DNA of 64,000 nt from Planctomycetota bacterium (GTDB lineage: Bacteria; Planctomycetota; Phycisphaerae; WQYP01): the NCBI GenBank assembly GCA_021790385.1, contig JAJYDW010000011.1:1-64000 (forward strand), given 5' to 3'. Below are positions 37,914-48,997 of this stretch, piece after piece. Position numbers and translations under genes: made by a program. Position 1 is the first letter of the stretch, and each line of letters opens with the position of its first letter. A model generated the notes under the pieces. It was not told where the DNA came from and did no database searches. It saw only the letters and a list, made by a program, of their open reading frames with translations.

Positions 37914-40900
37914 TCATTTTGATGGAGGCCCATCGGTCTTGCTCTTCGCCCCCGTTTGCGGCACGCGAATTTCGACAAAGCGGTCCACGTAGATGTATTT
38001 AACCTTCGAATTGGGTATGCCATGGATGTAAGCCACAGCCCCCTCCGAGGGAATGGGATTATAGCGGAACGGTCCACCCGGAATCTTAATCCACCGATAC
38101 CCACCTTTCTTAAGTTGGCCAACAGTCACATCTAGGAATCGGTCCATGGGGGGCGCGGAGCCTACGGCCATGGCAACGTCACCGCTCCGAGCCTTCCCAG
38201 CATCCGCGCGCACCGCCACGTAAAGGTTCCAAAGTCCCTTCTCGGGCAAATTATCCAAATGGTATTGGATCACCCAGGCCTGCTGGCCGCCGCCGATACG
38301 CACCGCGGTACCATCGGACGCCGCCGGATCACGCACGATCACCGTGTCGGGGTAGTATCGAATGATGCCGAGATCTTGTATGGTCCGCCAGTCCCGCCTG
38401 GGCAGGCCGCGGACGATCGATGGGGTCCGCGGTGCCGTGCGCTTGAGCAGGATCAGGCGGTGCAGTTCCTGGATCGAACCACCCTGCCGATATTCAGATA
38501 CATGTTCACGCTTCAATGTATGCATAAATCTGGCCAGACGGTGCGCGAAATCTATTTTAAATGGAATTCCCCGTCGCGCCGCTGCGTCGGCATATTCCCG
38601 GCAGCGCAATAGAATTACATAATCGAGGCCGATTCTCGCCGCCCGGACATGCCGAAGGTAGATGGGGTCGTGGGTAACGGCGGCCCGCGCCTGGTGGAAC
38701 AGGGCGTCGGCACTGGTAACAAACCCTAGCGTGAACATAGTGCTATCCACACTGGTCTTTTCCCATAACGGCGCGCCGCTTCGAATGGATGCCTGATGCA
38801 TCAGCTCCAAATACTTCTTAATAAACGGCCCGGCCGGGCCGTAATAATCGTTGCAGTATTCGCCGATCGCCGCCCGGTAGTTTGTGGCCGGATTCCAGAG
38901 CATCCGGGCCATTATCCAGACGTGCAGTGCGGCAAAATCTGCGGCTGGGGTATTCCAACTGCCTTCGGCAAAATACCCATGCACATGGCGCAAGGTGGCC
39001 AGCCAATGGATGCTCTGACAAATCGGATAAATGTTGGGTGTTGGTTGGATGAAGCCGTTAAAGTTTGTCACGTGGTCCCACACGAGGATATTCTTGCATA
39101 TCGCGTTCCACCCGACGAGCGCTTTGCCCAGACCTTGGTTGCGACCCTTGTTGAGAGCGGTGCTATAGTCGACCTGTATGGTCATCGGAAAAATCAGAAG
39201 TCCCTTAGGAACCTGCATTCCCGTGGGTGGATTGAAACCCCAGTGGTAGGCGTTGATCGCAATTTTAGCCCCAGGCAGTGCCTTACGCACCCGCTTAAGC
39301 ACGCTGATGGCCATGGCTAATTGCGGGGCCGACGGCACGCCCCCATGTGCCTTGGCAAACGCCGCACTGGCCGGGTCCATATCCCAGCCCCAGTCGTTAT
39401 CCATCAAGCCAAAATAATATCGCCTGTAATTGGGCACATCCCGCAGCCGTTGGATGATCGCGTCAGCCAGTGCTTGTCGCAGCCCGGAATTCATCATCGC
39501 CACCTGGCCGCCGGCGTACCACTGCGGATGCGCGGCCTGATATTGTTGCGGCGGCAATAGTCCATAGAAAGAAGCCTCTAAATCCGGCCGCTCCCAGTGG
39601 TTGTTCCAGAAGTCGATTTGCGGAGGCGAAAGAATGCCATACGCCCCGTGCGAATTACCGTTGAGCAGATTGTGCGCCTCGAAAGGCTTGTTCTGACCCT
39701 CGTAGCTAAGGATCTGCCGGTAGGCGAAACGCGGCACCTGCGTGGTCCGGACCGGCGCGATGGCCAGGTTCTTGGAAGCCGGCACATAGGTGTAATTGGG
39801 GCTGAGCCACTTCACGCCCAGCTTGTGATCCAGAAACCAGTTCACTCCATACATGGTCCCACCAGGCGTCGCGCCGGCAATTACTATATCCGGTCCGACG
39901 GTGCGAATGGTAAATCCGTCGTCACCAAGTTTAGCGTAGGAAATATGCGGGCACAGCCCCCGCGTCAGATCGTTGTGCCGCCCAACAATCACCAGTGGTC
40001 CGGCCAGCGGATGGCCGTCAAACGATAATGTTCGTGCCGGTCCACCGCTGATTTTGGACAGGTAGTCGTCGAGATTTCGGGCCGCGTTTAACGTCAATAG
40101 ATCTGCGCGTGTTCCGACATGGACGTGGTATTTAACCAGTCCGTTCTCGATCAGCATCAGTCGATGCGGTACCGGCTGCGAGGCCGCCGCCAACACCCTG
40201 GCCTTAATTGCTTCGGCCGCGGCCGCGGCGGGTAGGGCGAATGGCAAGAGCTTCGCCGCAAGTTTAGCCCGAATCAGCCCGGCCGCGGTGGTGGGCGGTT
40301 CGTTTGTCGGCACCGCTTTGACACCGGTAAAATATGCCGTTCCAGCGGAATGGCCTTTCTTACGAAGATAAATGAGCATTTGATTGGCCCCGGCTGGTGG
40401 TGCCACTACCGCCGAAAACGTTTTCCAAGGATGGGTGCCGCCGGTAACAAACAGGGCTTTTTCCGAGCCATTGGCATCGTTGATTATCCGCGGCCCGTAC
40501 CAACGAATTTCCACGCCCGGGCCGCGGTAGCTGATCTGCACGTACACGGATTTGACCGGGGCTCCGTTGCCGCGGATTTCCATCGATATCCTGTAACGTT
40601 TCCCGCCTTGAACCACAATGTTGTTTTGGCACACCCAGCCCGATTTCAGCCGTAGACCGGATTTGCCGCCGACGGAATCTTTCTTACTGACCTCGCCCGC
40701 CCCCTTGGCGGTTCCCGGCCCCCACCAACCCACGGTGCCATTTTTAAAGTCTCCATTCACAACCTTCGTGGGGGGTGTTTCGCCCTTGGTGGGGGGGGCG
40801 TTCGTCGGCACCGCTTTGACACCGGTAAAATACGCCGTTCCAGTGGAATGGCCTTTCTTACGAAGATAAATGAGCATTTGATTGGCCCCGGCTGGTGGTG

Positions 40901-41486
40901 CCACTACCGCCGAAAACGTTTTCCAAGGATGGGTGCCGCCGGTAACAAACAGGGCTTTTTCCGAGCCATTGGCATCGTTGATTATCCGCGGCCCGTACCA
41001 ACGAATTTCCACGCCCGGGCCGCGGTAGCTGATCTGCACGTACACGGATTTGACCGGGGCTCCGTTGCCGCGGATTTCCATCGATATCCTGTAACGTTTC
41101 CCGCCTTGAACCACAATGTTGTTTTGGCACACCCAGCCCGATTTCAGCCGTAGACCGGATTTGCCGCCGACGGAATCTTTCTTACTGACCTCGCCCGCCC
41201 CCTTGGCGGTTCCCGGCCCCCACCAACCCACGGTGCCATTTTTAAAGTCTCCATTCACAATGTTCAGTTTGGCCGGACCTGGCGCACCGACTGTGCCGGC
41301 ACGCGCCGACGGCGGTACCGCGGTACTGGCACATACCATGCCCATGCCCAGGACAATAAGCACCAACCTCCAAAATCCCCTTCGGTAGTGATGAAATAAG
41401 AACAAATCCAGTCTCCTGCGAAAAGGCACACACTGTAAAAAATAATTGGGCCGGCATCGGTTAATTCCCGTATGCCGTTTAACCAC
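37914..41486 (-). CDS. Exported DUF4838/alpha-glucuronidase-like protein with tandem CBMs
   Basis: The 1190-residue protein has a hydrophobic export signal (about residues 38-64, preceded by a basic stretch). Two near-identical carbohydrate-binding-like jelly-roll modules follow (about 76-228 and 242-394), then an N-terminal alpha-glucuronidase-like domain ([51 protein letters not shown]) and a DUF4838-type TIM-barrel region ([30 protein letters not shown]). A C-terminal beta module closes it. Relatives are thought to act on glucuronate-bearing polysaccharides; activity is unproven. The GTG start overlaps the pseudopilin stop by eight bases, so translation is coupled. The DNA of the two modules is 99 percent identical. 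Confidence 0.82.
40305..40763 (-). repeat. 459-bp tandem repeat, module 2 copy
   Basis: This block matches 40803-41261 base for base at an offset of 498 except for two positions that I can find. Copy 1 has C and T where this copy has T and C (plus-strand text), giving one amino-acid change (Ser-Thr-Gly versus Ser-Ala-Gly). It codes for the second binding module. Confidence 0.95.
40803..41261 (-). repeat. 459-bp tandem repeat, module 1 copy
   Basis: This is the upstream copy in coding order. The 39 bases between the copies (40764-40802) code for a Pro/Thr linker ([11 protein letters not shown]) and include a run of G residues. Identity this high between neighbouring modules points to a recent duplication or active gene conversion. 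Confidence 0.95.
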
Positions 41487-43437: not shown

Positions 43438-43493
43438 TCATAAAGCAACGGGATAATTTGACAACCATTCGCTTTTTTGTGACACTATCTCCC

Positions 43494-44663
43494 ATGGCAC
43501 GACCGCCCTTCCATTCTCTGGCCACCCGGCCTGTTCGGCGAATACTCCTGTCGATGGGTTGGTACAATATTGGTATCCATCGCGGAATCGCCCGCTACGC
43601 TAAAGAGGTCGGCTGGGCGCTCGACGCCATGACCTCACACCAGGCCGATGTTGGCCCCGTCTGGCAGCCTGACGGCGTGATCTGCATCCTTGGCGTTAAT
43701 CGCCGGATGGACAAGCTGGTGGAGAATCTTCGATTGCCAACAGTGAACATCGGATATCATACGACCCTGCCCATCCCGCGGGTTGCCGCTGATAATCGTC
43801 TCGTCGCGGGCATGGCTGCGGAGCATTTTGCCGAGCGCGGTTTTCGGCATATCGCATTTTATTACAAGGGCTTGTTCGGTCCTGGCGAATCGGAACGTAG
43901 CAAGCAGCTAAGACAGGCCGCCGCCGAACATGGCTGCCAGTTTCACCTTATTGACGCCAGCAAAACACGCGGCGGAAAAACCAAGCCCGTGGCCATGTTC
44001 AACGTCCTCCGGGGGGCACTTGCCCGGCTGCCCAAGCCTTTGGCCATCTTGGGTTGGGTTGACGAGACGGCCATTGAAATTGTGACCGCATGCCGAATGG
44101 AAAAACTTGGCGTACCCGAACAGGTCGCCGTTCTCGGCGTCGGAAACGATGAACTACGGTGCGAATTTGCCCCGGTTCCGTTATCGAGCGTTGATGAAAA
44201 TTTGGAGGCGATCGGTCATACCGCGGCTTCGCTGCTGGACCGCAAAATGGCCGGCCGGCATGTTTCACTCAAGCCTGTCTTAATTCCACCCATTGGCGTT
44301 GTAACTCGGCAAAGTTCTGATATCCTCGCCATCGATCATGTCGCGGTAGCGACCATCTTGAAAAATATATGGAACCATTTTCGCGAGCCGATCAGCGCCC
44401 GGGATATCGCCAGCAGCGTTCCTCTGTCATATCGGCGACTACACGAGGTCTTCGTCAAGTACATCGGACACAGTATTTTTGACGAAATTCTCCGCCGCCG
44501 ACTTGAATACGCGTCAAAGCTGCTGGCCGAAACTGACCAAAAAATAGAGGTAGTTGGGCGCGAGGCCGGCTTTTCCGACGGCAACCATTTTGGCAAAGCC
44601 TTCTTACGCAAACACAGGCAGACCCCGAGCGAATTTCGTGAACTGGTACGTGGACGCAAGTAA
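43494..44663 (+). CDS. XylR-type AraC-family regulator
   Basis: The 389-residue protein joins a LacI-like sugar-sensing domain (about residues 15-275; ILLSMGWYNIGIHRGIARYA, AILGWVDETA, VAVLGVGNDELRCEFAPVPL) to an AraC-type DNA-binding domain with two helix-turn-helix motifs. Parts of the latter are ISARDIASSVPLSYRRLHEV and IEVVGREAGFSDGNHFGKAF. That is the layout of E. coli XylR, which activates xylose genes. It is divergent from the PEP-CTERM/pseudopilin/DUF4838 operon and is the likely activator. ATG 43494 is preferred, but neither it nor TTG 43458 has a good ribosome site. TTGACA at 43458 might instead be a -35 box, which would leave a very short leader. The inducer is unknown. Confidence 0.88.
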   Translation: MARPPFHSLATRPVRRILLSMGWYNIGIHRGIARYAKEVGWALDAMTSHQADVGPVWQPDGVICILGVNRRMDKLVENLRLPTVNIGYHTTLPIPRVAADNRLVAGMAAEHFAERGFRHIAFYYKGLFGPGESERSKQLRQAAAEHGCQFHLIDASKTRGGKTKPVAMFNVLRGALARLPKPLAILGWVDETAIEIVTACRMEKLGVPEQVAVLGVGNDELRCEFAPVPLSSVDENLEAIGHTAASLLDRKMAGRHVSLKPVLIPPIGVVTRQSSDILAIDHVAVATILKNIWNHFREPISARDIASSVPLSYRRLHEVFVKYIGHSIFDEILRRRLEYASKLLAETDQKIEVVGREAGFSDGNHFGKAFLRKHRQTPSEFRELVRGRK

Positions 44664-44987: not shown

Positions 44988-47675
44988 CTATTTTGCATCG
45001 TGCAGCAGTTTCGCCAGAGCCTGGTAGTCGGTTTTGCCGGTACCTAAAACCGGTATCTGCTCCAGCGTGCGCACGATACGTATATTATGCAATCCGGAAA
45101 GACCGGCCTGGCGAATCACCTGGTTGACCAAGGTCCGTTCCAGCGGGCGAATGACAAACAGAACCAGTTCGGGATGGTCCTGGTCCGGCGTGGGCAATAC
45201 CGCCAGGCATGGCCCCTGGTCGTCCGGGCGGCCATAGGCACGAACCAGCACCTCTTCAACAGCGGGCAGAGAAACCATTTCTCCGCCGATTTTCACAAAG
45301 CGTTTCAGCCGGCCCATAAACGTCAGGTTCCCCCGGGCATCCGCCTGCACCAGATCCCCGGTGCGATACCACGTATGGCCATCCCATGTTGCAAATGGCC
45401 GCGGGCCGTCGTAGTGCAGATACCCCCCAAATATGCTGGGGCCGCGGACCAGCAACATGCCGGTTTCACCTGGACCAAGCGGTTGACCGGTGTCCGGATG
45501 AACGATCGCCACAACCACGGATGGCAGCGGCTTTCCGATGGTACCCGGACGCAGATCATCTTCGCGCATCACCGCCACAAATGGCGAGCATTCGGTAATG
45601 CCGTAGCCTTCCAGAACCACTGCCCGCGGACAACGGACCTTGACGGCCTGGTACACGTCCGGCGGACATTTTTCGGCCCCGGTAACACACAGCCGCACGC
45701 TGGTTAAATCGGCGCCGCTGGAGCGTACTATATTGGCCGTAAACGTGGGTGTCCCCAATAAAATTGTCACCTGGTATGCCGGGATGATTTTGGCCAGCAC
45801 TGCTCCTTCATTCGGATTGGGATAATGCACCACCTTCACCCCGGCAAGCAGCGGCAAAAGCATGGTGGCAGTGATACCAAACGAATGAAACGGCGGCAAC
45901 ATGCCCAAAAAGCGGTCGCCCTCCAGGATCGTGATGCTTGCCAGTGCATCGCGGATGTTGGTCAATAAATTGGCATGGGTTAACGGCACGGCCTTGGGAA
46001 AAGCTTCCGATCCGCTGGTAAAGAGCACCACCGCGTTGGGCGCGGACGCAGCTTTGCGCAAGGCCCGCCAGGAAAACCTGGCGCGAATGGCTGCGGAAAG
46101 CTTCTCCCACTTGCTGATGCCGGCGGCTAAGTGTTCCAGGGGCACCAGCCGGCCTTTTAACGCGGTCATATCAATGCCCTGCGAGGCAAGGCGGTGCACC
46201 AGTGCGTCTGCCGTCAATACCTTCTGCACTTCCAGCAGGTCCAGGCTGTGCTGCACGTTGCGCTGGCCGGCGGTCCAGTTCACCATCACCGGCGTTTTAC
46301 CGGCAAAAAGAACCGCCAGAAAAACGGTGTCCGCGGCCACCGATGCGGGCAGCAAAATGCCCATGTATTGCCCCGGCATGGCGGCAATTTTCTGTTGCAG
46401 GGCCAGAATGGAGGTGATCAAATCGCGGTAGGTGCGGGAGCCATGCTGCATATCAGCCACAATAACCCGTCCGGGATTCCGGGCGGCCTGCGCCAAAAAC
46501 ACCTCCTGCACCGTGTTGCCCTCGGGGATCTGTGCCCGCACCCGGACCGGCTCGGCCAGCCACGCGGCCGAGGCTGGCGGTACACGGGCATCCGCCGCGG
46601 TGCCGGAGAGTTTGCCACACGCTGCCAACAGCACATCGCCCACCGTGTGTACCGATTCCACACTGGGCACCTGCACGGCAAATTCCTTTTCCAGCCAGAA
46701 GATAATGTCGGTAATGGCCAGGCTATCCAGGCCCAGATCACGGGCCAACTGCTGGTGATCCTGTAGATCGGTTACGCCGGTGGCCTGCCACAGATACTCC
46801 AGCACAATTTGCCGGGTGGCTGGCGGCACTGCGCCGGTACTGCCGGTGGCGGCGGCGGCAGCGTGCGGCGGCATTTCGCGGGAACCACCTTTATTTTCCC
46901 AGCGGCTATACGGTACGTACAGTGCTGGTGGAGTGGACTGATTATAAAACGTATCCAGATACGCATTCAGGGTGGCTTTGTCGGCATGGCGCGGTATATC
47001 CGTCGGTTCGGCCAGGACGATGTCAACGTTCCGTTTGGGTGCAAAACACACGCCGCTGGCCAGTAGCGAAGGTATATGTTTCACCAGGCCCCGACCCAGT
47101 TGTGGAGGCGTACCGGCTGCCCAGCCAAAGCTGCTGCCCCACAAGCCGGTGGTACGCACCAGCACTACCCGTATATCCGGCAACCTGGCCAGAATGCGAT
47201 GCACCGCGCTGACCCCGCCCAGAGTTTCCACCTGCTGGCGCATGATGCGTCCGGCCGGATAAAGCAGTACGTTTTCTCCGCGCTGCAGGGCCTCAATGCA
47301 CAGTTCAATGGCGTGCTGCGCTTTGCCGGCATTGGCGGTATCCGTACTGGACATATCCGGAATCGGCAAAACGCCCAGCCGATTGGCCAAAGGGCGAATC
47401 AGCGGCTTGTTGACCTGGTTTTCCAGGGCCAGCGGCCGCACGCCGAATTTTCCGTGCAGGTAGGCCAGAACAATCACTGGATCAATAAGGGCGGGATGAT
47501 TGGGCAAAAACAAAATGCCCTGCATACCTCGTTTATTTACCTCTGCCACGCCATGCATACGTACGCGGTAACGCAGGGAGAGCACTCGACGGGTCAGCAG
47601 GCACAGCACCTGGGCCGACCGACGTGGCCGACCGGGTATGCGTCTGCTGACAGCAGATGTTACCTGAGAACACAT
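44988..47675 (-). CDS. Acyltransferase-ACP-acyl ligase fusion (Aas-like)
   Basis: The 895-residue protein has three parts. An N-terminal PlsC-type acyltransferase carries N59-H60-x4-D65 (NHPALID). An acyl carrier domain (about 285-360) has Ser318 in DLGLDSLAITD as the phosphopantetheine site. A C-terminal AMP-dependent acyl ligase (about 395-890) has VLFTSGSEAFPKAVPLTH, YGITECSP and YRTGDLVQ. E. coli Aas re-acylates lysophospholipids with an acyltransferase and a ligase but has no carrier domain; here the carrier sits between them. The gene starts two bases behind the LplT-like transporter stop, so the pair matches lplT-aas. The start at 47675 has no strong ribosome site, as expected for coupling. 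Confidence 0.88.
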   Translation of the reverse strand: MCSQVTSAVSRRIPGRPRRSAQVLCLLTRRVLSLRYRVRMHGVAEVNKRGMQGILFLPNHPALIDPVIVLAYLHGKFGVRPLALENQVNKPLIRPLANRLGVLPIPDMSSTDTANAGKAQHAIELCIEALQRGENVLLYPAGRIMRQQVETLGGVSAVHRILARLPDIRVVLVRTTGLWGSSFGWAAGTPPQLGRGLVKHIPSLLASGVCFAPKRNVDIVLAEPTDIPRHADKATLNAYLDTFYNQSTPPALYVPYSRWENKGGSREMPPHAAAAATGSTGAVPPATRQIVLEYLWQATGVTDLQDHQQLARDLGLDSLAITDIIFWLEKEFAVQVPSVESVHTVGDVLLAACGKLSGTAADARVPPASAAWLAEPVRVRAQIPEGNTVQEVFLAQAARNPGRVIVADMQHGSRTYRDLITSILALQQKIAAMPGQYMGILLPASVAADTVFLAVLFAGKTPVMVNWTAGQRNVQHSLDLLEVQKVLTADALVHRLASQGIDMTALKGRLVPLEHLAAGISKWEKLSAAIRARFSWRALRKAASAPNAVVLFTSGSEAFPKAVPLTHANLLTNIRDALASITILEGDRFLGMLPPFHSFGITATMLLPLLAGVKVVHYPNPNEGAVLAKIIPAYQVTILLGTPTFTANIVRSSGADLTSVRLCVTGAEKCPPDVYQAVKVRCPRAVVLEGYGITECSPFVAVMREDDLRPGTIGKPLPSVVVAIVHPDTGQPLGPGETGMLLVRGPSIFGGYLHYDGPRPFATWDGHTWYRTGDLVQADARGNLTFMGRLKRFVKIGGEMVSLPAVEEVLVRAYGRPDDQGPCLAVLPTPDQDHPELVLFVIRPLERTLVNQVIRQAGLSGLHNIRIVRTLEQIPVLGTGKTDYQALAKLLHDAK

Positions 47676-47677
47676 GC

Positions 47678-48997
47678 CTATATTACCTCTGACGTTATCT
47701 CTCCGGGCTTGCGCCTGGCAAAAACCGGTACCACCGCCAAAGCCGCGGGAAATGTTACCAGGCCCATGAGCACAAAAATGGTGGAGGACTGCAAGTATTT
47801 CTGCAGCGGAATGTAGATAATGCCTGCCGCCAGCAGGCCCACGGATGAAGCAAAACTGGCTGCGGCAATCACGCGTCCGCGTTTACGAGGTTCCGGCCGG
47901 GTCTGAAAAAAGCTTCCCAGCGGCACCATCATCAGGCCCCCGGCCACACCGGCACAGGCCAGCATGGACAACAGAAAAATAATCCGCCCATGTCCCGGGA
48001 AAAGCGGGGCCAGACCGGACAGGCACAAAAACAGGCCCAGCGCTCCGGTGGCCCCGGGTGTTACCCACAGGCCGTTGTCTTTGGCGATTATATTGCCCGC
48101 CGCCAAGGCTCCCACCACCACGCCCAGCATTTCCGCCAGGGCCAGATAGCTGGTGGTGGCATCATTAAGCCCGAACTGCACCTCCCCCATTTTATTGATG
48201 AAAAGTATCTGCAAACCGGCGATAAACCAGAAATACGTATACGTGATGACGGCAGCCGAGAGCAGCCGATCGCTCCGCAGACCCCACAGATCCAGCAGCG
48301 AGCTTAAAGGACCGGCCCAGGGGAACGGTTCTTTCGGATTGCCCGCAGGCCGATACGGAACTCCAAAACTTACCAGCAGCCCGATCACTGAAACCACCAG
48401 CAGCGAGCACGCCGCAACCAATCGCCCCAGTGGCAGGCCGTGAAAAGTGCCCTTGAGATTCAGCGTCAGGCCCGCGGCCACTACGCCCAGCAGAATGCCC
48501 GCGGTGGTTGCGGAAGTAAGCCGGGCATTGGCATGCACCACGTAACTTTCCGGGTAAACATCGGGAATGCAGCCGCTTAAGGCCGGGCCGAAAATAGTGG
48601 CCTGCAGAGCCATCAGAAAAATCACCGTTACAATCAGCGGCCAGTTGAGCGTCATAATGCCCACCCCACCCAGCCCCAGAAACGCCAGTTCCATGACTTT
48701 GGAGATAATAATGACGTTGCGCCGCGGAAATCGATCCGCCAGCCAGCCTGCGGTGGCATAAAACAGCAGAAACGGCAGGGTAAACAAAATAGTGATCACT
48801 CCGGGCAGGCCCGTGTGATGGTGGCTAAGCGCCAAAAGGCTTACTGCCTGTTTGTTGAAATTGTCATTGAAGTTGCCCAGCGTATAGGCCACGGCCATGG
48901 CGATAAAAAGCTTGCGTCCGCGGCGAATCTGCTCGGCGATGCCGGCTGTCGGCTGCTCCGGTGGAACCGCGGTACCGGTTGGGTCGAGTTCGGCCAT
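47678..48997 (-). CDS. lplT: LplT-like lysophospholipid transporter (MFS)
   Basis: The 439-residue major facilitator protein has about 12 membrane segments. The loop 2-3 motif is GWLADRFPRRNVIIISK, and FIAMAVAYTLGNFNDNFNKQA in the first helix resembles LplT. LplT flips lysophosphatidylethanolamine and related lipids across the inner membrane for repair. ATG 48997 follows AAAAGGGACC. Its stop lies two bases before the Aas-like gene. Aas-type partners are the best evidence for substrate; other MFS functions cannot be ruled out by sequence alone. Confidence 0.85.
   Translation of the reverse strand: MAELDPTGTAVPPEQPTAGIAEQIRRGRKLFIAMAVAYTLGNFNDNFNKQAVSLLALSHHHTGLPGVITILFTLPFLLFYATAGWLADRFPRRNVIIISKVMELAFLGLGGVGIMTLNWPLIVTVIFLMALQATIFGPALSGCIPDVYPESYVVHANARLTSATTAGILLGVVAAGLTLNLKGTFHGLPLGRLVAACSLLVVSVIGLLVSFGVPYRPAGNPKEPFPWAGPLSSLLDLWGLRSDRLLSAAVITYTYFWFIAGLQILFINKMGEVQFGLNDATTSYLALAEMLGVVVGALAAGNIIAKDNGLWVTPGATGALGLFLCLSGLAPLFPGHGRIIFLLSMLACAGVAGGLMMVPLGSFFQTRPEPRKRGRVIAAASFASSVGLLAAGIIYIPLQKYLQSSTIFVLMGLVTFPAALAVVPVFARRKPGEITSEVI

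Follow-up and report, generated by a model that had tools for sequence, protein, structure and literature searches.

A planctomycete Aas-like protein with a built-in acyl carrier domain and an LplT-like partner: a candidate enzyme of lysophospholipid repair

We analysed the first 64,000 nucleotides of contig JAJYDW010000011.1 (NCBI GenBank assembly GCA_021790385.1, forward strand; hereafter the window), which belongs to a Planctomycetota bacterium. A gene on the minus strand of this stretch encodes a protein in which a PlsC-type acyltransferase, an acyl carrier protein (ACP) domain and an AMP-forming acyl ligase of the Aas type follow one another in a single chain, next to a gene for an LplT-like transporter of the major facilitator superfamily (MFS). 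Sequence comparisons and structural models lead us to favour, with some reserve, the view that this protein is an Aas with its own carrier that serves lysophospholipid repair: the ligase would load the carrier in cis, and the carrier would hand the acyl chain to the neighbouring acyltransferase.

Domain architecture of the Aas-like protein

The gene and the parts of its product are as follows.

44988..47675, minus strand: PlsC-ACP-AMP ligase gene (open reading frame, 895 amino acids)
46866..47612, minus strand: acyltransferase domain, residues 22-270 (PF01553 and PlsC-fold model match)
47481..47498, minus strand: motif I (HX4D), HPALID, with His60 and Asp65 (sequence and family alignment)
47247..47261, minus strand: motif III, YPAGR, without the Glu of the PEG/AEG form (family alignment against carrier-less Aas)
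46827..46865, minus strand: Ala/Gly-rich linker from acyltransferase to carrier, residues 271-283, sequence HAAAAATGSTGAV (sequence and predicted local distance difference test, pLDDT)
46602..46826, minus strand: acyl carrier domain, residues 284-358 (PF00550, profile and structural match)
46722..46724, minus strand: Ser318 codon, predicted 4'-phosphopantetheine site (DSL motif; first residue of helix 318-332)
44997..46538, minus strand: AMP-forming acyl ligase domain of the Aas type, residues 380-893, with predicted catalytic Lys881 (PF00501, BLAST and tree)
47678..48997, minus strand: LplT-like MFS transporter gene (open reading frame, 439 amino acids)

Exactly three Pfam families, PF01553, PF00550 and PF00501, were found in the 895-residue protein, each over its curated cut-off. 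AlphaFold2 modelled the whole chain with a mean pLDDT of 85.4 and a predicted template modelling score (pTM) of 0.76, and residues 22-375 alone with values of 85.4 and 0.81; the PlsC fold and the ACP helix bundle were both recovered. A preliminary description of the locus had given the coordinates, the domain order, Ser318, the two-base spacing and the LplT-like neighbour, and open reading frame calls, Pfam and NCBIfam agree with it on all of these points. It had also stated that Escherichia coli Aas lacks a carrier domain of its own; the K-12 protein, used as a control, indeed gives no PF00550 match.

The carrier domain and its linker

PF00550 was matched at residues 292-339 with 27.0 bits (cut-off 20.8, E 5e-6), Ser318 lying inside the DSL motif, so that the segment proposed earlier does score as a carrier. 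The predicted helices span residues 285-299, 318-332 and 345-352, with Ser318 opening helix II, and the modelled domain superimposes on the Bacillus ACP 2x2b with a Z score of 11.4 and a root mean square deviation (rmsd) of 1.6 A over 72 residues. Moreover, a profile built from 39 carrier segments of the family matched 111 distinct PDB sequences at E <= 0.001; fatty-acid ACPs ranked first, the Aquifex ACP 2ehs among them at E 2e-11. By sequence and by model, the carrier is a true type II-like ACP domain, and a chance match to PF00550 is ruled out by the ACP fold, the profile matches and the conservation across the family.

The linker that precedes the carrier is of a different nature. Its residues 274-277 have pLDDT values below 50, and between the window and three relatives of the same genus it is only 23-31% identical, compared with 80-89% for the carrier and 82-88% for the two enzymes. 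On these identities the carrier is under constraint, conserved within the genus as firmly as both enzymes, while its tether is free to vary.

The acyltransferase and ligase domains

PF01553 covers residues 38-147 with a low score, 26.5 bits against a cut-off of 23, whereas E. coli Aas and two fused Aas proteins reach 86-92 bits. In the model of residues 22-375, the acyltransferase nonetheless superimposes on the Thermotoga PlsC 5kym with a Z score of 15.8 and an rmsd of 3.1 over 190 residues. Motif I is well kept in the family alignment: His occurs in 81 of 82 filled rows, and the position of Asp65 is Asp in 77 and Glu in 4 of 81. The window protein thus carries both the HX4D motif and the PF01553 domain of an Aas, whereas its motif III reads PAG, without the Glu. 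This Glu is present in 27/27 rows of carrier-less Aas, E. coli included, and in 0/83 filled rows of the carrier-bearing family, where Ala (52), Ser (26) or Gly (5) stands in its place (PAG, PSG and PGG).

The ligase matches PF00501 at residues 395-753 with 220.6 bits and is 30% identical to the ligase of E. coli Aas (E 1e-66). The top four NCBIfam models for the whole protein are Aas or acyl-ACP ligase models, although the full-length cut-offs of the Aas equivalogs are not reached (PRK08633, 443.5 of 1221 bits; PRK08043, 267 of 886 bits). In a tree of 49 ligase domains, which included 30 of the family's 83 ligases, 15 of the 27 carrier-less and 4 of the 5 FadD-like ones, all Aas-type rows stand apart from the FadD-like ligases with a Shimodaira-Hasegawa-like approximate likelihood ratio (SH-aLRT) support of 100. 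Top models and tree both assign the C-terminal ligase to the Aas type, and model scores and tree together rule out a FadD-type identity. The 30 carrier-bearing rows form one side of a branch supported at 99; by this phylogeny, the carrier-bearing ligases are a separate clade beside carrier-less Aas. As the carrier-less rows are supported as one group at only 17, with E. coli Aas as a long row, the tree does not decide between gain and loss of the carrier.

The LplT-like partner

The LplT-like gene is the upstream one, its stop codon being separated from the ATG of the Aas-like gene by two bases (47676-47677). Its 439-residue product matches PF07690 with 81 bits; the best NCBIfam models are the LplT/MFS part of PRK08633 (190 bits) and PRK06814, followed by LplT itself, PRK11195 (85 bits), and the scores stay under the full-length cut-offs of all LplT-related models (297 bits for PRK11195). 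BLASTP against E. coli LplT gave 23% identity (E 9e-10), and an FNDN motif (Asp45) stands, as judged by eye, at the place of FGDN (Asp30) in the E. coli protein. Model matches, identity and adjacency together indicate an LplT-related MFS protein coupled to an Aas-type gene.

In the same-genus relatives L005-L007, LplT is fused to the Aas-like protein. In the window (47600-47700), and likewise at loci L018/L039, the same extra segment with a stop lies between the two genes; since L018/L039 come from a second genome of the genus, a sequencing error behind the split is unlikely.

Across the family, the upstream neighbour could be judged at 75 loci, after 8 duplicate loci had been dropped and 15 of 90 with fewer than 1300 upstream bases set aside. 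LplT is fused at 15 and directly upstream at 23 of these (38 together). At six others (L038, L045, L047, L048, L050 and L093), in planctomycete and desulfobacterial metagenome-assembled genomes (MAGs), an MFS gene of the ATG22 type (PF11700) occupies the place of LplT; PF11700 was checked in two of the six, and examples are L045:2620-3954 and L048:4511-6013.

Spread and conservation of the family

Scanning 84,980 species genomes with a peptide pattern yielded 61 distinct loci with relatives, mostly near full-length query coverage. The MAG titles name Planctomycetota, Desulfobacterota groups, Kiritimatiellae, Lentisphaerae/Victivallales, Acidobacteria (Holophagaceae, Vicinamibacterales), Auribacter, Muiribacteriota and others; these phylum names are only as sound as the titles, in which binning errors are possible. 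The preliminary description had framed the carrier as an insertion in planctomycetes; the scan and the ligase tree point instead to a separate clade spread over several phyla. No plasmid-borne relative was found at E <= 1e-5.

Among near genomes, 52/61 have some match at E <= 1e-10, and long matches (>700 bits) occur in 17/28 genomes of the window's family and 4/33 of the rest of the class. In a phylum-wide sample, the acyltransferase-carrier profile was matched in 20 of 294 genomes, which makes it a minority architecture among the planctomycetes sampled. E. coli Aas was matched at E <= 1e-60 in 88 of 199 genomes of the phylum, a count that includes carrier-bearing members; judged by sequence, carrier-less LplT-PlsC-AAS chains are common there.

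Conservation was counted over 90 rows, with exact duplicates removed, weak matches dropped and gapped rows set aside at each column. At the position of Ser318, Ser was found in 84 of 87 filled rows and Ala in the remaining 3. It should be noted that our three alignments (A1, 41 rows; A2, 36; A3, 39) were hand-picked; the invariant Ser of A3, which omits L074 and L075, while L079 is in none of the three, is a product of row selection, and 84/87 is the unbiased figure.

Proposed function and alternatives

We propose that a phosphopantetheinyl transferase (PPTase) of the genome would attach phosphopantetheine to Ser318, after which the ligase would activate a fatty acid with ATP and load the carrier in cis. 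The flexible linker would then let the carrier swing over to the acyltransferase, which would move the chain onto a lysophospholipid flipped in by LplT. With the carrier covalently tethered, no soluble ACP would have to be bound, as it must be by E. coli Aas, and the acyl chain would not enter the general acyl-ACP pool. For E. coli Aas, it is reported that the acyl-ACP it produces serves no other user than its own acyltransferase (PMC6167442) and remains tightly bound (PMC11271967). By analogy, the best explanation of the carrier-bearing protein is that this channelling has become covalent.

In-cis loading for repair, already put forward in the preliminary description, is the best available reading of the locus, given the near-invariant Ser, the Aas-type ligase and the LplT fusion in sister species. 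It is further supported by the conserved catalytic residues, the real ACP fold and the constrained carrier on a drifting linker. The window's genome encodes one PPTase and has a good match to Lnt, the reported source of 2-acyl-glycerophosphoethanolamine for Aas in E. coli (PMC6167442); with the PPTase at hand and Lnt as a source of lysophosphatidylethanolamine, repair gains additional support. PF00550 is matched three times in the same genome, most strongly by a likely AcpP.

Several observations weigh against repair or against a need for the carrier, and they concern chiefly the acceptor and the Ala rows. Since the motif III Glu is lost in every filled family row, the acceptor of the acyl chain may differ from that of Aas. 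LplT is absent beside 37/75 loci, and 31/75 have neither LplT nor an ATG22-type MFS upstream, although several of the latter offer only ~1.5 kb of upstream sequence, and L117, whose 420-residue N-terminal stretch has no Pfam match, was counted among them. At E <= 1e-15, LplT is also missing from 16/18 searched genomes of loci without an adjacent LplT, among them 4/4 searched genomes with an ATG22-type neighbour. Repair of flipped lysophospholipid is therefore not to be assumed for the family as a whole, and the earlier proposal is supported in part. No match to PldA was found in the window's genome. Moreover, genome G176 encodes a carrier-less fused LplT-Aas as well as a separate carrier-bearing protein, which hints at a separate task for the latter there.

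These points bear most directly on a first alternative, in which the three-part assembly line is the same and the acceptor is another glycerolipid or a hydroxyl compound rather than a flipped lysophospholipid, LplT being one of several partners. The missing LplT genes, the altered motif III and the second Aas of G176 all speak for it, as do the three further PlsC-type acyltransferases of the window's genome. However, 38 loci, among them the window and the same-genus relatives, have LplT fused or adjacent, and both enzyme domains score against models of acyl-ACP--phospholipid O-acyltransferase; we regard another acceptor as rather unlikely. With similarly low confidence, we can picture a multi-phylum clade in which the ACP was hard-wired, the acyltransferase changed (loss of the motif III Glu, use of chains from its own carrier only, different or wider acceptors) and the flippase became exchangeable between fused LplT, adjacent LplT and, in genomes with no detectable LplT, an unrelated ATG22-type MFS at the corresponding position. 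If so, the ATG22-type transporters, which we flag as possible flippases, would be candidate bacterial lysolipid flippases.

A second alternative takes the carrier as real and has it charged in trans, by the type II fatty acid synthase or AcpP, or gives it a docking or regulatory role, the ligase making soluble acyl-ACP like E. coli Aas. The three Ala rows (L074, L075 and L079, titled Holophagaceae or Acidobacteria) retain His60, Asp65 and all ligase residues checked; by alignment these rows represent a natural case in which the attachment site was lost, and the carrier would be dispensable in that lineage, which also weighs against the favoured reading. Planctomycete acyltransferase-carrier proteins of ~370 amino acids without a ligase (L111:4152-5258, L112:4263-5390 and L113:4926-6041) point the same way. 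PF00550 exceeds its cut-off in L112 only among the three, and no close ligase of the carrier-bearing family was found within the examined stretches around them. Against charging in trans stand the Ser retained in nearly every row and the position of the carrier, which shares its chain with the ligase everywhere apart from these three didomain proteins; E. coli Aas, moreover, is reported to channel its acyl-ACP without release (PMC6167442). We consider this alternative improbable.

An ElbD-like ether-lipid enzyme that has lost its reductase is the least credible explanation, very unlikely in our judgement: ElbD combines an acyl-CoA synthetase (ACS) with an ACP and an AGPAT-like acyltransferase in a single protein, ElbD-like homologues that lack FAR1 have been reported from other phyla (both PMC9131029) and a metagenome screen reports ElbD matches in Planctomycetota (PMC11868695), but the window protein has no reductase domain by Pfam, an LplT partner is present and the ligase groups with Aas, ElbD being known here by description and not by sequence.

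For the favoured function, a lysophospholipid-repairing Aas with its own carrier, the built-in domain makes Aas channelling directly testable, there being a single serine to mutate. The Ser-to-Ala rows, the carrier-less relatives and the ligase-less acyltransferase-carrier proteins form a natural comparison set. The protein would also be a compact ATP-driven module for placing free fatty acids on lysolipids.

Other features of the window

Downstream of the Aas-like gene and convergent with it, the open reading frame 43458-44663 (plus strand) encodes, by Pfam, a periplasmic-binding-like sensor with an AraC-type helix-turn-helix, likely a sugar-responsive regulator. Further along, within the open reading frame 37914-41486 (minus strand), a 498-bp unit occurs in two tandem copies at 40289-41260 with a 98% match, corresponding to a duplicated domain of ~166 amino acids; the copies are either a recent duplication or an assembly artefact.

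Comparison with known systems

E. coli Aas resembles the window protein in having an acyltransferase followed by an Aas-type ligase and in its LplT partner, which is reported to form a complex with Aas and to dock on its transferase domain (PMC11416262). It differs in the absence of a carrier and in the motif III Glu that it keeps, and the similarity between the acyltransferases is weak (31.6 bits). Judged by sequence, the window protein would work in an Aas-like manner and has an Aas-type ligase, yet it departs from Aas on two counts, the equivalog cut-off and the motif III Glu.

Single-chain LplT-PlsC-AAS fusions (PRK08633, PRK06814; L118-L142) have the same parts in the same order, the carrier excepted. 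They fall outside the carrier-bearing clade, and the carrier-less proteins tested, the fusions L025 and L026 and the unfused L028, have no PF00550 match. Fused LplT-Aas open reading frames have been noted as uncharacterised (PMC11416262); in PMC3924187, LplT appears in the reference list only. Chlamydia LpaT (CT775) and AasC (CT776) provide the same two activities for lysophospholipid recycling, but as separate genes that use soluble ACP, the acyl-ACP being probably released to all users (PMC6167442).

We found no description of the three-domain acyltransferase-carrier-ligase architecture in the literature searched, whose scope left out most subscription papers. The nearest cases are ElbD and bacterial fusions of domains like fatty acyl-AMP ligase (FAAL) to lysophospholipid acyltransferases, mentioned in a single sentence of a FAAL study (PMC8460268). 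Compared by description, with the domain order of ElbD outside the comparison, Myxococcus xanthus ElbD is alike in that a single protein holds an acyl ligase, an ACP and an acyltransferase; its ACP and ACS activities are reported in vitro, and its acyltransferase activity as not detected. It differs in its N-terminal FAR1-like reductase and its ether-lipid role, and the operon as presented in the relevant passages of the source has no mention of LplT (PMC9131029). ElbD is thus a partial precedent for joining these three parts in one protein, and the carrier-bearing Aas-like architecture is a new variant of an enzyme, Aas, that is itself already known.

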